The notes beneath the pieces are model-generated. The model saw only the letters and a list, made by a program, of their open reading frames with translations. It ran no database searches and was not told where the DNA came from. The position numbers and the translations under genes are program-made. Positions 43,323 to 49,507 of a stretch of 64,000 bases of DNA are shown piece by piece (the stretch's first letter is position 1; each line of letters starts with the position of its first letter). This DNA is from Candidatus Thalassarchaeum sp. (GTDB taxonomy: Archaea > Thermoplasmatota > Poseidoniia > Poseidoniales > Thalassarchaeaceae): contig JADHRW010000002.1 in NCBI GenBank assembly GCA_016777225.1, positions 257,284 through 321,283 on the forward strand. Reading direction: 5' to 3'.

Positions 43323-45434
43323 TTAATCTTCGATATCAAACTTATCGCTATAGTAAGAAGATATACCTGGGATATTACTGATTAATTCAGAATAACTCCC
43401 CATATGCTCTTGAGATGTAACTCTTACTAACCCTGGAGTATTGAGTACATTTTCTAAAATCTCAGAACCACAAGTATTCTTTGGAGAATCTTCATCGATT
43501 ACATGTACGGAAATGTCGTAACAACCAGTATATGTGTTCCCCATAACAGTATAATTCTCAACATAGGTTTCATAATTTAATGTCATTAAAGCATTAAGAA
43601 TCGCAGTCCTAGTTTGAACATCTAAAGACTCGGGATTATACATTATCGGATGACTAGGAGCTTGTCCAAACGTAGGCAGTGCGACATATTGATCTCTCTC
43701 TAAACACCAATCTTCATTGTCTTCAGAGACCTCATTACCACAATACGAATCAATGGTGCTATCTTTAGCAAAGGCAACATCCCCTGTACCATCTGATAAA
43801 CATTTCACAGCCCCTGAATAACTATAATATGGAGTCCCTGAATCAGGAATAGATGCATCCGAATTAAAGAATCCATAGATAGTATTTCTTAATGACTCGA
43901 TATCATCGCTATCTCCGATTACAGGGGCGTATTCATTAGCAATTAGATAACCCATTGGCAAAAGCATACCTGCTGATTTTAACCAGCCCGTATGACATGA
44001 AGTTTTACCCTCTAAAAGAGTAAATGGATCAGTTTCCGGATCATCATCTAGGTGGGCTAATGCGATTTCACTATCTGCCTTCACCCAAGCGTGGGCATTG
44101 TAGTATGTACGGCCATCTGATTTCTGATCGGCTGCCATGGCAGCTAACCCATATTCTTTCCAACCTACCCATGCTGCCCCGCCATCCATGAATGCAATAT
44201 CTGCATTACCAAATCTCAATGCTTCGATAATAGCTCCTTCTGAATCTACGCTATAAAGTTCAACTGTTACCCCTAAAACTTCCTCTAGGTAATCTGCTAA
44301 AATTTGTGGATTTTCATCAATATTGTCATAATCCGCCTTAATTTCGTAAGCAATTCTGACTTTCTCTATAGTGATTGAGACAGTTCCATTAATAGTGAAC
44401 TTATCATTATAATAAGCAGATATCCCTGGTATATTGGAGATTAATGATGAATAACTACTCAAATGATCTTCGGCATTCGTTGCGACAATTCCAGGTGTAT
44501 TAAGGACATTGTTCAATATGCTACTAGCCTCTGAATCAGCACTCATTTCTACAAGTACTTCTGTAATTAGATCTGCGAGATTTGAGTCCATTAATTCAGG
44601 ATTATACATTACAGGATGACTAGGGGATTTACCAAATGCAGGGAGAGCAACATATTGATCTCTGGAAAGACACCAATCGCTATTTTCTTGTAATACTTCA
44701 TTGTTACAATAAGTATCCACAGTATTATCTTTAGCGAAAGCTACATCTCCAGTTCCATCGGATAAACATTTAATTGCTCCTTCATAACCATAATATGGAG
44801 TTCCTGAATCTGGTATCGAAGCATTCTCATTAAAATATTCAAAAATTGTATTTCTAATTGTTTCTACGTCATTAGGGTCACCAACAACATTAGCATAACC
44901 ATGTCCAATTAGAAAACCCATAGGGAGTAACATTCCAGCTGATTTAAGCCATCCAGTATGGCAAGAAGTCTTACCAGAAAGTAGTGCAAATGGGTCAGTA
45001 TATGGATCATCATCTAGGTGTGCTGATGCCATTTCACTGTCTGCTCTAACCCATGCATGAGCATTATAGTAAGTACGGCCATCGCTTTTCTGATCAGCAC
45101 CTAATGCACCTAAATCATACTGTTGCCATCCGACCCATGCAGCACCGCCATCCATTATTCCAATATCTGCATTACCGAATCTCAGGGCCTCAATCATTGC
45201 CCCTTCAGAGTCAACACTATATAGCGAAACATCATAATTTAATTTCTCAGTAAGATAATCTGCTAACTGCTGAGGATTTTCATCAATATTGTCATAATCG
45301 GATTGGATTTCATAGGCAATTATAAGGCTACCCAATTTCCCACCTTTTTCATCATTATTATCTAGGCATCCAGCAAGAGCAGTTGTTAAGAAAAGCATTG
45401 AAATTAAGTATGTCATCATTTTTTTGTTATTCAT
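43323..45434 (-). CDS. Bilobal transferrin-like iron-binding lipoprotein (solute-binding protein)
   Basis: The 703-residue lipoprotein (lipobox ALAGC23) holds two tandem homologous lobes, about 38-345 and 360-700. Each lobe carries transferrin signatures. The lobe-one ligands are D95 (MDGG), Y122/Y123 (TYYNAHAW), Y217 (YYGYEGA) and H273 (PSHP). The lobe-two ligands are D417, Y444/Y445, Y539 and H595. The anion-site motif CHTGWLKSAG places T160 and K164, then T482 and K486, where vertebrate transferrins have Thr and Arg. KCLSDGTGDVAFAKD follows Y217 and Y539. C158 and C223 (and C480 and C545) match a conserved transferrin disulfide. Default annotation would be PhnD-like; transferrins share that fold. 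AAGGTGA at 45440-45446 supports ATG 45434. It likely binds ferric iron with carbonate outside the cell for the ABC importer. Confidence 0.85.
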   Translation of the reverse strand: MNNKKMMTYLISMLFLTTALAGCLDNNDEKGGKLGSLIIAYEIQSDYDNIDENPQQLADYLTEKLNYDVSLYSVDSEGAMIEALRFGNADIGIMDGGAAWVGWQQYDLGALGADQKSDGRTYYNAHAWVRADSEMASAHLDDDPYTDPFALLSGKTSCHTGWLKSAGMLLPMGFLIGHGYANVVGDPNDVETIRNTIFEYFNENASIPDSGTPYYGYEGAIKCLSDGTGDVAFAKDNTVDTYCNNEVLQENSDWCLSRDQYVALPAFGKSPSHPVMYNPELMDSNLADLITEVLVEMSADSEASSILNNVLNTPGIVATNAEDHLSSYSSLISNIPGISAYYNDKFTINGTVSITIEKVRIAYEIKADYDNIDENPQILADYLEEVLGVTVELYSVDSEGAIIEALRFGNADIAFMDGGAAWVGWKEYGLAAMAADQKSDGRTYYNAHAWVKADSEIALAHLDDDPETDPFTLLEGKTSCHTGWLKSAGMLLPMGYLIANEYAPVIGDSDDIESLRNTIYGFFNSDASIPDSGTPYYSYSGAVKCLSDGTGDVAFAKDSTIDSYCGNEVSEDNEDWCLERDQYVALPTFGQAPSHPIMYNPESLDVQTRTAILNALMTLNYETYVENYTVMGNTYTGCYDISVHVIDEDSPKNTCGSEILENVLNTPGLVRVTSQEHMGSYSELISNIPGISSYYSDKFDIED

Positions 45435-45498
45435 ATATATCACCTTATTAAAATTTTTAGGGTCTCATAAAACTTCCGAGAGAGGGGGGTTATATTAA

Positions 45499-45568: not shown

Positions 45569-47566
45569 GTGAAGACTACGTTCTCTAAGCAGGTTTTTTC
45601 ATTAATCATAATTTTAATGATAATTTTAATGACATATTCGCTACCTGAAAATAACACTACAATAGAAGAAGAAAACTCTCCGAAGTATCAATTAGGAGGA
45701 GGGGGTGGAAGCATTGAAGAAAGGTGTAGTTCAATTACTTTCGAAGACATCCTTCCTTACACACATGCACATTTTGACATTGTAATTGATGATGATTGGA
45801 ATTCCGCAGCAGTAGAAGCGCGTGCTTGGGTAAATGGAAGCAGTGTTGACGGATTGAGAGAATTGCTAGATACATATCTAGAAGAATTATACCCAAGTGG
45901 AGGAGATGGTTGGATTTCAACTGACGAAAAGTCAGCTGTTGAAGCGGTCGCATCGGAATGTATTGAATATGCATTGACAAGGATTGGTATGAGAGAAGCA
46001 GCACCGCACAGAGGAGGAGTTGGGTTAGATTGGAAGAATGCTACTTGGCAAGATGGAGTCATTATTGAAGAATGGAATTTAGTCCCGTCTAATCATGCAG
46101 ATATACGAGACTGTACAGCTATGGGTTCGAGTAATGATTGCGTAGAAGTACCAGTGTATCCAAACTCTGAAAGAGATTGTAACACACTTATCCAGACTAT
46201 TGAAGGAATTGATGAATGTAGATTAGAATTATGGATGAATGCGACGATGGTGATACCCAATATAGAGCAAGGAGATCAATTTACGCTTGCTTTCAATACA
46301 TCTAACATGACCAATGCAGTCCTAGATTTTACATTCCCAAATAATCCAGACTTAAGACTGGATATGTGGGAAGAATGTGAAGGGAGAGATGTTGAATTTG
46401 AGCCAACTACTCATGAAGATGCCCCTCTGAGAGGGACGTGTATAGGAGACGGTTCGTCCACTTATACATTTGAAAACATAGTAAATGAAGAAGTGAAGTA
46501 TACCTTAATTCCGCACAGAAGTATGGAAATGTGGCCAAGTGGAGAAGATATATTTGCAGACTTTACGACAGCACCTATACCTATTGATGAACCACCTACT
46601 TGGACTGAAATTGCTCCTAAAAATCAAGCCTGGTTCCCATCGCTAGAAAGTGGAGAAAAAATATGGGCAGACTGGAATAGCGTCTCTTCATGGTTTACTG
46701 ATGAAAATCCTATTTCACAATTACAAATTAACTGCGAAGGGACTGATTCACTGAATATTTATCAATCTACAGATAAATCATTCTGGGGGACCATAGAAGA
46801 AGCTGAGGTTGGTGAAGTTACATGCGAGGCAATAGATAATTCGGGACAAAGTTCAGGGAATAGAACGTGGCATCTAGGAGTGCCATTTTCAGTATCAACC
46901 TCAAATAATATTCTTTTGAACCCACACCCAATACTAATTGAATTGAATGAAGGATGGCCTGAATTAACTTTAGAATATGGATTTACACAGAGTGAGAATT
47001 TTAATTCTGGAACGATGGATACTGTATCTCTAACTTCAAGTGGAATTATGATGGTAGATTCATTAGGAATGATCCCTGGAAATGTCAATTTATGGGTCAG
47101 AACTTATGCAGAAAATGTATACTCGATAGATAAATTGTTTTATCTAGACATAATAAAAGAAAGTTCCCCACCTCTGATTAGTCTTTCTGAGTATGGCTGG
47201 GAAGTTGATACATGGAAAGCGCAGGGGCAATTTAGTGACCCTGATGGAGAAGAAGTTTTATTCTCATTATCTATAAACAATTTATCTGCAGGAAGTATAT
47301 CAGTTTCTGGCAATTCTTGGAGTACACCAATAATTAATTTCGGATTATGGGAAGAAGGCATCCATGAAGTGAAAATTATTGGTTGCGATATTTCTATGAA
47401 ATGTAACGATGTAATATTAATGGTCAATAATACCCATTTATATGAAAGTGATGAAATATCTCTCCCGCCAAGTCAAGATGATAACGGGTCATTACCAGGT
47501 CCAGGTATTGTTTTAACAATTTTATCTTTAACTATCGGTCTCATATACTCAACCCGACGCGATTGA
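45569..47566 (+). CDS. Large secreted surface protein sharing the iron-box promoter, function unknown
   Basis: The 665-residue protein starts at GTG 45569. It has a signal segment (about 8-24) and a low-complexity GGGGGS linker. A Cys-containing N-terminal domain follows, with several cysteines between about 180 and 280. The later Ig-like region has DNSGQSSGNRTW and a cadherin-like QGQFSDPDGEEVLFSLSINN stretch. A terminal helix is preceded by SLPGPGI and followed by YSTRRD. No enzymatic motif is seen. It is divergent from the transferrin-like gene with a single shared operator, so it may belong to the same metal-responsive set, for example as a surface receptor or binding scaffold (inference). 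Confidence 0.75.
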   Translation: MKTTFSKQVFSLIIILMIILMTYSLPENNTTIEEENSPKYQLGGGGGSIEERCSSITFEDILPYTHAHFDIVIDDDWNSAAVEARAWVNGSSVDGLRELLDTYLEELYPSGGDGWISTDEKSAVEAVASECIEYALTRIGMREAAPHRGGVGLDWKNATWQDGVIIEEWNLVPSNHADIRDCTAMGSSNDCVEVPVYPNSERDCNTLIQTIEGIDECRLELWMNATMVIPNIEQGDQFTLAFNTSNMTNAVLDFTFPNNPDLRLDMWEECEGRDVEFEPTTHEDAPLRGTCIGDGSSTYTFENIVNEEVKYTLIPHRSMEMWPSGEDIFADFTTAPIPIDEPPTWTEIAPKNQAWFPSLESGEKIWADWNSVSSWFTDENPISQLQINCEGTDSLNIYQSTDKSFWGTIEEAEVGEVTCEAIDNSGQSSGNRTWHLGVPFSVSTSNNILLNPHPILIELNEGWPELTLEYGFTQSENFNSGTMDTVSLTSSGIMMVDSLGMIPGNVNLWVRTYAENVYSIDKLFYLDIIKESSPPLISLSEYGWEVDTWKAQGQFSDPDGEEVLFSLSINNLSAGSISVSGNSWSTPIINFGLWEEGIHEVKIIGCDISMKCNDVILMVNNTHLYESDEISLPPSQDDNGSLPGPGIVLTILSLTIGLIYSTRRD

Positions 47567-47569
47567 TAC

Positions 47570-48400
47570 ATGAGTTTCTCCGGGAGTGTCAGTCGGCCGT
47601 CTCATGAAGGAGGCTTACTTATTTCATTCCAAGGTAGAGCACCTGGCCTATATACAGGCATCAGAGTAGTTGGTGGGAAGTTCCTAGGGAGAGTAGATTC
47701 AGTCATAGGATCAATAGATGGAGCTTATATCCATATCAAGCCATTAGCAGAAGGTGTTGTTGCTGAAAAGGCTGTTGGCTCACCTGTAGAAATAGCCCCA
47801 AGAGATAGAAGACCTCGTGATGATAGAAGAAGTAATGATAGAAGAGGTAACGATAGAAGGGGTAACGATAGACGTAGTTCTGATAGAGACATTCACATGA
47901 AACCTGGTGATTGGCGTTGTCCAAAATGTAAGAATCATAATTATGCCAATAAACAATTTTGTAATAGATCTACTTGTAATGAAAAGAAGCCAAGTGGAAA
48001 TTACAACCAAGGAAGAGATAATAATCGAGGCAGAGATAATAATCGAGGCAGAGATAATAATCGAGGCAGAGATAATAATCGTAGTAGAGATAGAAATGAA
48101 GAGCCTAATATCAAACCAGGAGATTGGATTTGTCCAAAATGTAAGAATCATAACTATGCAAGTAAAGATTTCTGTAATCGTTCATCTTGTGACGTTAGAA
48201 AACCAGGAGGAACTTCAAGTTCCAAAGGTAGTAGAAATACACCTGCTAGGTCCAGAAGACCAGACCGAAAGGGTACTGAGAGGCGAGGGAATAATAATTC
48301 AAATCGAAGACAGACTAGTAGGCAAAGTTCAACTGGCTCTAGAAATAGCAGTAGGTCAAATAATAATAGAAGTGGAAATAAATTCAATTCTCGTAGATAA
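47570..48400 (+). CDS. Gar1-like domain protein with two RanBP2-type zinc fingers and RGG/RD-rich linkers
   Basis: The 276-residue basic protein has a Gar1-like beta-barrel at about 3-80. Its segments VVGGKFLGRVDSVIGSIDGAYIHIKP and VGSPVEI follow the archaeal Gar1 pattern of H/ACA RNPs. Arg-rich repeats of the DRRGN type come next. Zinc finger one has C117, C120, C131 and C136 within GDWRCPKCKNHNYANKQFC. A four-fold GRDNNR repeat follows, then zinc finger two with the same GDWICPKC...FCNRSSC pattern, and a long Ser/Arg/Asn-rich tail. The W-x-C-x2-C-x3-N form matches eukaryotic RanBP2-type RNA-binding fingers, with x4 rather than x2 between the last cysteines. It likely binds RNA and may act in pseudouridylation or another RNP. 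Confidence 0.8.
   Translation: MSFSGSVSRPSHEGGLLISFQGRAPGLYTGIRVVGGKFLGRVDSVIGSIDGAYIHIKPLAEGVVAEKAVGSPVEIAPRDRRPRDDRRSNDRRGNDRRGNDRRSSDRDIHMKPGDWRCPKCKNHNYANKQFCNRSTCNEKKPSGNYNQGRDNNRGRDNNRGRDNNRGRDNNRSRDRNEEPNIKPGDWICPKCKNHNYASKDFCNRSSCDVRKPGGTSSSKGSRNTPARSRRPDRKGTERRGNNNSNRRQTSRQSSTGSRNSSRSNNNRSGNKFNSRR
48011..48082 (+). repeat. 18-bp in-frame tandem repeat, four units
   Basis: Four consecutive 18-bp units of the form GGCAGAGATAATAATCGA encode the GRDNNR hexapeptide in the linker between the two zinc fingers. Units two and three are identical, and units one and four each differ by one base. Copy number could vary between strains by slippage. Confidence 0.85.
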
Positions 48401-48463
48401 ACCTGAATTAAACAGACCTTGACGTACCCGAGGCTTAATTTCTTAGAACTCTCACCGCTGTTT

Positions 48464-49507
48464 ATGGCGAAGAGTGCGGAAATGATTTGGCTTGACGCTT
48501 TAGATTCAAGAGAAAATGGAGATATTGAATCTGCAATTGAACAGGCTAAAGATGCAGTTCACATTGATGAAACTCATACAGATGCTTGGATGGCAATAGC
48601 CACATGGTCTTTACCTCCACCGACTAGAGGTAAGCAAACACAGCCATCACTCGAAGAATCTGCTAAAGCTATGGCGGCTCTAAGAAAAGTAATCTTGTAT
48701 GATCCAAAAAATACCGAAGCATGGAAAATTGGAGGTTGGTTATTAATAGATAATCTTGGCATGCTTGAGGATGCTCTACAATGGTGGGAGGAATATAGAG
48801 ATGAATTCCCAACAGACGTTACTCCAATAATTGAACAGATATCAATATTAGTCAGACTTGGTTTATATGAAGAATGTCGTGGAAGATTGTTGGAATTATA
48901 TAGTGAAGAAATGGATGCACCATCTAATCAACAAACTATGAGAATGGATGGCGTGAGGAAGATGGTTGAAAGAGCAGCGAAAATGGAAAAAGATGAAATC
49001 TTTACTCCTCAAGATTCTGAACATCCCAGGTGGGAAGTAATAGAGAAAATGAAAACTGTAAAGCCGCTTAGTTCTACATTCTGGTTAGTTGCGTTCATTG
49101 CTCCTTTGGTTTTCATATTCGGGAGTATTTGTATGACCTTTTTAGGAGGATCAATATTTGGCTTCATACTTGTATTCTTACTGATCCTTGGTGCTTTTGG
49201 AGTTCTTACAAGAGCATCAATGGGATTATTGCAAAAAAGAAATCGGCATGCATTAGACATGGATAGAGCCATTGATTATGAAACCTCATCAGGGAAAATT
49301 TGCATTCCTGAATCGATAAGAGGTAGTGTTGTGTATAATTCAATGATGAAAAATAGAACTCCAGCAGTGACTTACAGACTAAGTCTTCTTGTTGAGTCCG
49401 ATGATAAAATGAGTTCTAAATACAAATTAAAAATGCCAGTTTGGAGTATTAATGATGAAAAAACATGTATTATTGATGATAATACTGAATTAGAAGCACT
49501 ATCTTAA
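48464..49507 (+). CDS. TPR-like protein with membrane hairpin, function unknown
   Basis: The 347-residue protein starts at ATG 48464 (MAKSAEMIWLD). Its N-terminal half has helical repeats that look like tetratricopeptide units, such as AEMIWLDALDSRENGDIESAIEQAKDAV and AMAALRKVILYDPKNTEAWKIGG. Two adjacent membrane helices follow at about 208-260. A cytoplasmic C-terminal domain of about 85 residues ends the chain. It may be a membrane-tethered scaffold. It ends convergently with adenosylhomocysteinase, and the two stop codons overlap. No partner is evident. Confidence 0.75.
   Translation: MAKSAEMIWLDALDSRENGDIESAIEQAKDAVHIDETHTDAWMAIATWSLPPPTRGKQTQPSLEESAKAMAALRKVILYDPKNTEAWKIGGWLLIDNLGMLEDALQWWEEYRDEFPTDVTPIIEQISILVRLGLYEECRGRLLELYSEEMDAPSNQQTMRMDGVRKMVERAAKMEKDEIFTPQDSEHPRWEVIEKMKTVKPLSSTFWLVAFIAPLVFIFGSICMTFLGGSIFGFILVFLLILGAFGVLTRASMGLLQKRNRHALDMDRAIDYETSSGKICIPESIRGSVVYNSMMKNRTPAVTYRLSLLVESDDKMSSKYKLKMPVWSINDEKTCIIDDNTELEALS

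Follow-up and report, generated by a model that had tools for sequence, protein, structure and literature searches.

RanBP2-type zinc fingers have the consensus W-x-C-x2(4)-C-x3-N-x6-C-x2-C. To our knowledge, the joining of Gar1 to FUS-type fingers and Arg-rich tails is usually regarded as foreign to archaea, and we know of no zinc finger in the arms of eukaryotic Gar1. Eukaryotic Gar1 (GAR1/NOLA1) is described as a Gar1 core with Arg-rich low-complexity arms (PMC8096250, PMC9957100), and RGG arms are presented as a trait that distinguishes it from its archaeal counterpart (PMC8096250). RanBP2-type fingers are found in the FET proteins (FUS, EWS, TAF15) and in ZRANB2. In ZRANB2, residues W79, R81 and R82 are reported to read GG while N76 and N86 read U (PMC5499739), and N435, F438 and R441 are the residues given as acting in the FUS finger (PMC7021683). 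An archaeal protein with a RanBP2-type finger has been described, ArnA of Sulfolobus; it combines the finger with an FHA domain and has been linked to the control of motility, and what is said of its architecture includes no Gar1 part (PMC6509490).

The gene analyzed here lies in a window of 64,000 nucleotides (the whole stretch of DNA examined) from Candidatus Poseidoniales (Marine Group II). Its barrel resembles archaeal Gar1 as known from Pyrococcus furiosus (2ey4/2hvy; PRK13149/NF009629) in fold, profile homology and co-occurrence with cbf5 and nop10. However, 35 plain Gar1 proteins from our phylum sample measure 73-123 aa (start as chosen), whereas the window protein reaches 276 aa and carries fingers and arms. 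It shares with eukaryotic Gar1 the core with Arg-rich low-complexity arms, but those of eukaryotes flank both ends, whereas the Poseidoniales additions are exclusively C-terminal and include RanBP2 fingers. With the FET proteins and ZRANB2 the family has in common RanBP2-type fingers with GGU-reading residues and, in many relatives, RGG-rich disorder beside them, with a Gar1 barrel in place of the RRM of the FET proteins; no RRM was present among the Pfam matches of the window protein up to E 10. The parts are known, and the order-wide archaeal combination of Gar1 with RanBP2 fingers appears to be new: no earlier description of a fingered Gar1 in Poseidoniales or Marine Group II was found in the open-licence PMC literature. 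We estimate at roughly three in four (0.74) the probability that the protein serves as Gar1 in the H/ACA pseudouridylation particle of Poseidoniales and has been extended by fingers that bind single-stranded RNA and by Arg-rich arms.

Domain architecture and identity of the barrel

The preliminary description, made from the sequence alone, had read this gene as a Gar1 barrel joined to two RanBP2-type fingers of the form W-x-C-x2-C-x10-C-x4-C. Fold, profile and Pfam PF00641 evidence agree with this reading, and both fingers display exactly that spacing (Table 1). In the full-length predicted model, disordered linkers separate the confidently predicted parts, namely the barrel (block pLDDT 81-90) and the two fingers (84-90).

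Table 1. Features of the fingered Gar1 gene, in window coordinates.
Feature	Residues	Position	Strand	Evidence and remarks
Whole gene: Gar1 barrel, two RanBP2-type fingers, Arg-rich disordered linkers	276 aa + stop	47570..48400	+	ATG start; ORF, homologues
Gar1 barrel domain	1-78	47570..47803	+	AF2, Foldseek, VIA-align, hhalign
Arg/Asp-rich linker 1	79-113	47804..47908	+	Sequence; disordered, pLDDT <50 at 86-107
Finger 1, C-x2-C-x10-C-x4-C (C117 C120 C131 C136)	114-136	47909..47977	+	Pfam PF00641; finger profile E 1.2e-10 in own genome; block pLDDT 87-90
RDNNRG-type repeat linker, disordered	142-178	47993..48103	+	RDNNRG x3; pLDDT <50 at 144-178
Finger 2, C-x2-C-x10-C-x4-C (C188 C191 C202 C207)	185-207	48122..48190	+	PF00641 best stretch 182-204; finger profile E 2.5e-11; block pLDDT 84-88
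Basic Arg/Ser/Asn C-terminal tail	214-276	48209..48397	+	Sequence; pLDDT <50 at 216-271

When the AF2 model of the barrel (pLDDT 91.8) was submitted to Foldseek, the top matches were the Gar1 chains of 2ey4 and 2hvy (E 1.2e-3, TM 0.74/0.81, rmsd 1.8), and VIA-align likewise placed archaeal Gar1 first (Z 11.3, rmsd 1.8 over 74 aligned residues). Other barrels, namely ATP synthase subunits and RimM, followed lower in both rankings, the first unrelated barrel having a VIA-align Z of 9.3. When PDB sequences were searched with a profile built from an alignment of 59 Poseidoniales barrel domains, archaeal Gar1 came out on top (2hvy_B, E 0.0021), followed by 3mqk, 2rfk and 2ey4, and comparison of the profile by hhalign with 23 plain Thermoplasmatota Gar1 sequences gave a probability of 97.4 (E 1.3e-11). 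The archaeal Gar1 model of NCBIfam, NF009629, matched the window protein marginally (E 0.067, residues 15-93). The search with the Pfam Gar1 model proposed in the preliminary description was unsuccessful, as PF04410 matched neither the window protein nor anything else in its genome, the likeness being below the reach of that model. Since comparable searches of 14 control genomes brought PF04410 above its cut-off in only 2 of them, this miss was taken neither as a refutation nor as a defining test. The Gar1 likeness expected within residues 3-80 is supported instead by hhalign, by the PDB profile search and by the predicted structure; on fold and profile homology, the predicted barrel is a Gar1.

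The only gar1 found in Poseidoniales genomes

The genome that carries the window also possesses a TruB_N/cbf5 gene (E 2.1e-23) and nop10 (E 1.4e-11). A separate, plain gar1, for which a check had been suggested at the outset, was not found: PF04410 gave 0 matches in this 87% complete assembly and the only NF009629 match was the window gene itself. Because of that degree of completeness, the absence of a second gar1 is not proof by itself, and support is added by other genomes of the order. NF009629 was run over 292 genomes of the phylum and matched in 134 of them at E<=0.1; all 23 Poseidoniales genomes with a match had exactly one each, which by its position was the fingered Gar1 gene. It is to be noted that NF009629 is insensitive in Poseidoniales, since many genomes of the order give no match.

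These counts bear on the possibility that the protein no longer belongs to the H/ACA particle, its barrel now being the scaffold of a new FUS-like protein that binds or condenses RNA and acts on mRNA or transcription. Such a departure would suit the weak sequence likeness to the standard Gar1 models, a finger and linker portion that is larger than the barrel, and the position of the gene, which does not adjoin RNA-modification genes. We nevertheless consider it rather unlikely, since the sole gar1 detected belongs to a genome that retains cbf5 and nop10, the same gene is the sole match in 23 of the 23 Poseidoniales genomes mentioned above, and the barrel is constant while the fingers come and go.

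Fingers and arginine-rich linkers

Across the whole window protein, the Pfam family Zn_ribbon_RanBP (PF00641) scored 37.2 bits against a curated cut-off of 27 (E 1.7e-9) in two stretches, thus bearing out the family assignment that had been proposed for the fingers. Taken singly in a genome search with the same model, they scored 24.4 and 23.7, and every other match in the genome had an E-value of 0.047 or worse. The homologues yielded 112 distinct fingers, among which 78 are spaced C-x2-C-x10-C-x2-C, 29 are of the window type C-x2-C-x10-C-x4-C, four have a middle gap of x9 and one has a first gap of x1. The variant spacing claimed earlier therefore holds for the window fingers, which do end in C-x4-C, but not for the order, where 78 of the 112 end in the canonical C-x2-C; the window form is a derived local variant.

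A profile of the canonical finger, built from 35 fingers, was run against PDB chains and ranked FUS first of all (4.5e-13) and ZRANB2 next (4.6e-12), ahead of TAF15, RBM10, Nup153 and RBM5, in agreement with the resemblance to the FUS/ZRANB2 class that had originally been noticed. Positions were matched by our own alignment to ZRANB2 (D68, N76, N78, W79, R82, N86) and FUS (N435, F438, R441). All 78 canonical fingers share the Asp that precedes Trp (D68), an Asn at N78, an aromatic residue at W79/F438 and Arg at R82/R441; Asn occupies the N76/N435 position in 74 and the N86 position also in 74. Judging from these aligned sequences, the residues that read GGU in ZRANB2 and FUS are nearly invariant in canonical Poseidoniales fingers. 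The window-type fingers carry Lys in place of the invariant Arg in 29 of 29 cases and Asn or Ser at the R81 position, and for this reason their affinity for RNA may be weak.

The RanBP2 family also includes protein binders and Nup153 was among the PDB matches, so that the barrel could belong to an H/ACA Gar1 whose fingers bind NZF- or Nup153-like protein partners instead of RNA. This appears quite improbable given that the best PDB matches are RNA-binding members, that the GG- and U-reading residues have been kept and that the fingers are placed among Arg-rich linkers.

As to these linkers, the RGG-like repeats announced in the preliminary description exist in the family but not in the window protein itself. 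The latter contains six RG and zero RGG, without FET-type RGG boxes beside its fingers, and its repeat is RDNNRG, which occurs three times against a mean of 0.0 over 2000 shuffles. In contrast, 69 of 99 homologue rows, which include near-copies from the same species, have at least one RGG and 37 have at least four; the RGG count exceeds that of composition shuffles at p<=0.01 in 23 of the 99 (near-copies included).

Distribution and evolutionary history

A homologue of the window gene was found by genome search in 91 of 97 relatives and in 19 of 19 genera, and the barrel profile matched 287 of 339 genomes of the class at E<=0.1, 279 of these in the two Poseidoniales families. Nearly all of 21 related loci in named genomes are labelled Euryarchaeota, Candidatus Poseidoniales, Thalassarchaeaceae, Thermoplasmatota or Marine Group II; one is carried as Rhodobacteraceae SAT2 and was presumably mis-binned. 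Because the gene is kept in 91 of 97 relatives, chance is ruled out as the source of its architecture, and eukaryotic contamination was rejected because the neighbouring genes on the contig are kept in both Poseidoniales families. The low complexity and variable length of the linkers might recall a chance expansion or an assembly artefact around an ordinary Gar1, but this is hardly credible, as the same architecture recurs in many separate assemblies, among them isolates AG-313-L18 and AG-319-P11, with invariant finger residues, a conservation that already refutes it.

Most gene-bearing relatives have one to four fingers, and the range over the homologue rows, some of which are cut by contig ends, is 0 to 4. 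Run over the 292 phylum genomes at E<=0.001, the finger profile matched 62 genomes, of which 60 belong to Poseidoniales and two, with scores close to the threshold, do not; five matches on contigs lacking the barrel were all located at contig ends. Both matches outside Poseidoniales (E about 6e-4) were discarded, one (G432) being a different sort of protein, short and Cys-rich, and the other (G462) having no finger by pattern. Within the sampled phylum, RanBP2-type fingers are thus nearly restricted to Poseidoniales. The third, sister family of the class, which we take to be Marine Group III, has a plain Gar1 of ~74 aa. In three of its loci (L154, L155 and L196) the plain gar1 directly precedes a TFB-like gene and follows a tRNA pseudouridine synthase-like gene (names assigned by eye).

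Fingers are dispensable for the core role of Gar1, since the homologue rows of four genera (g7, g9, g2 and g19) lack them and in g11 they are degenerate. The decayed g11 finger (L084, L091, L094, L096, L107) reads TWVCxxCRxxNSxTxxCxxC, without the aromatic RNA-reading residue. A conserved motif built around GHAHNRxP, with a basic KARGK-like stretch ahead of it, forms the C-terminus of many homologues in the second family and in g2 and g19 (L059, L064, L068, L079, L090, L092, L102, L103, L108, L112 and L115), though not of the window protein, and is perhaps a docking motif.

A tree of the barrel, computed on 83 columns, has low resolution: 25 of its 66 inner branches are starred, the bootstrap did not settle and long branches come together. 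It therefore allows only broad statements. Canonical fingers occur in both Poseidoniales families and the window type within one; the plain Gar1 sequences group together, apart from the rest (100/99). Three changes on this tree account for the rows without fingers, and only one of the three is forced by well-supported branches. In the simplest reading, fingers would have been gained before the two families split, followed by the change to C-x4-C, decay in g11 and several losses. A parallel gain of Gar1 arms in Poseidoniales and eukaryotes is likewise the simplest reading, because Gar1 is plain in the sister family, as it is in the further Thermoplasmatota that we inspected.

Proposed function

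If the protein is an enlarged H/ACA Gar1, as we favour, its barrel most likely occupies the same place on Cbf5 as its counterparts in other archaea, controlling from there the thumb loop and the release of product. Its fingers, presumably binding zinc, would attach to short single-stranded G-rich (GGU-like) stretches of the substrate RNA or of the guide, and unspecific RNA affinity would be added by the arginine arms, which in relatives are often RGG. Fingers and arms together could in this way hold the H/ACA particle on rRNA or tRNA precursors. Yeast Gar1 deprived of its RGG domains is reported to alter H/ACA activity and product release in a hairpin-specific manner (PMC8096250), and by analogy this deletion might serve as a model for the possible role of the Poseidoniales arms. 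A bolder and unlikely extension would be an independently built, multivalent Gar1 of the FET style that draws G-rich pre-rRNA together with H/ACA particles in a condensate resembling a nucleolus, its finger possibly derived from a eukaryote. A single archaeal order displays arms and GGU-type fingers on Gar1, with natural variation in finger number from 0 to 4, which opens the effect of RNA-binding arms on the H/ACA particle to comparison, and the known range of RNA-type RanBP2 fingers is widened into archaea.

Genomic context

The fingered Gar1 gene (47570-48400) is located between the gene of a secreted ~650-aa protein (45569-47566) and that of a ~340-aa TPR-like protein (48419-49507), an order kept in all six Poseidoniales loci read, from both families (names assigned by eye). 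With these two genes as neighbours, no RNA-modification operon was seen around it, and its gene order offers no clue to function. Elsewhere in the window, an ORF of 706 aa (43323-45443) consists of two similar halves, each resembling by eye a phosphonate-type substrate-binding protein.
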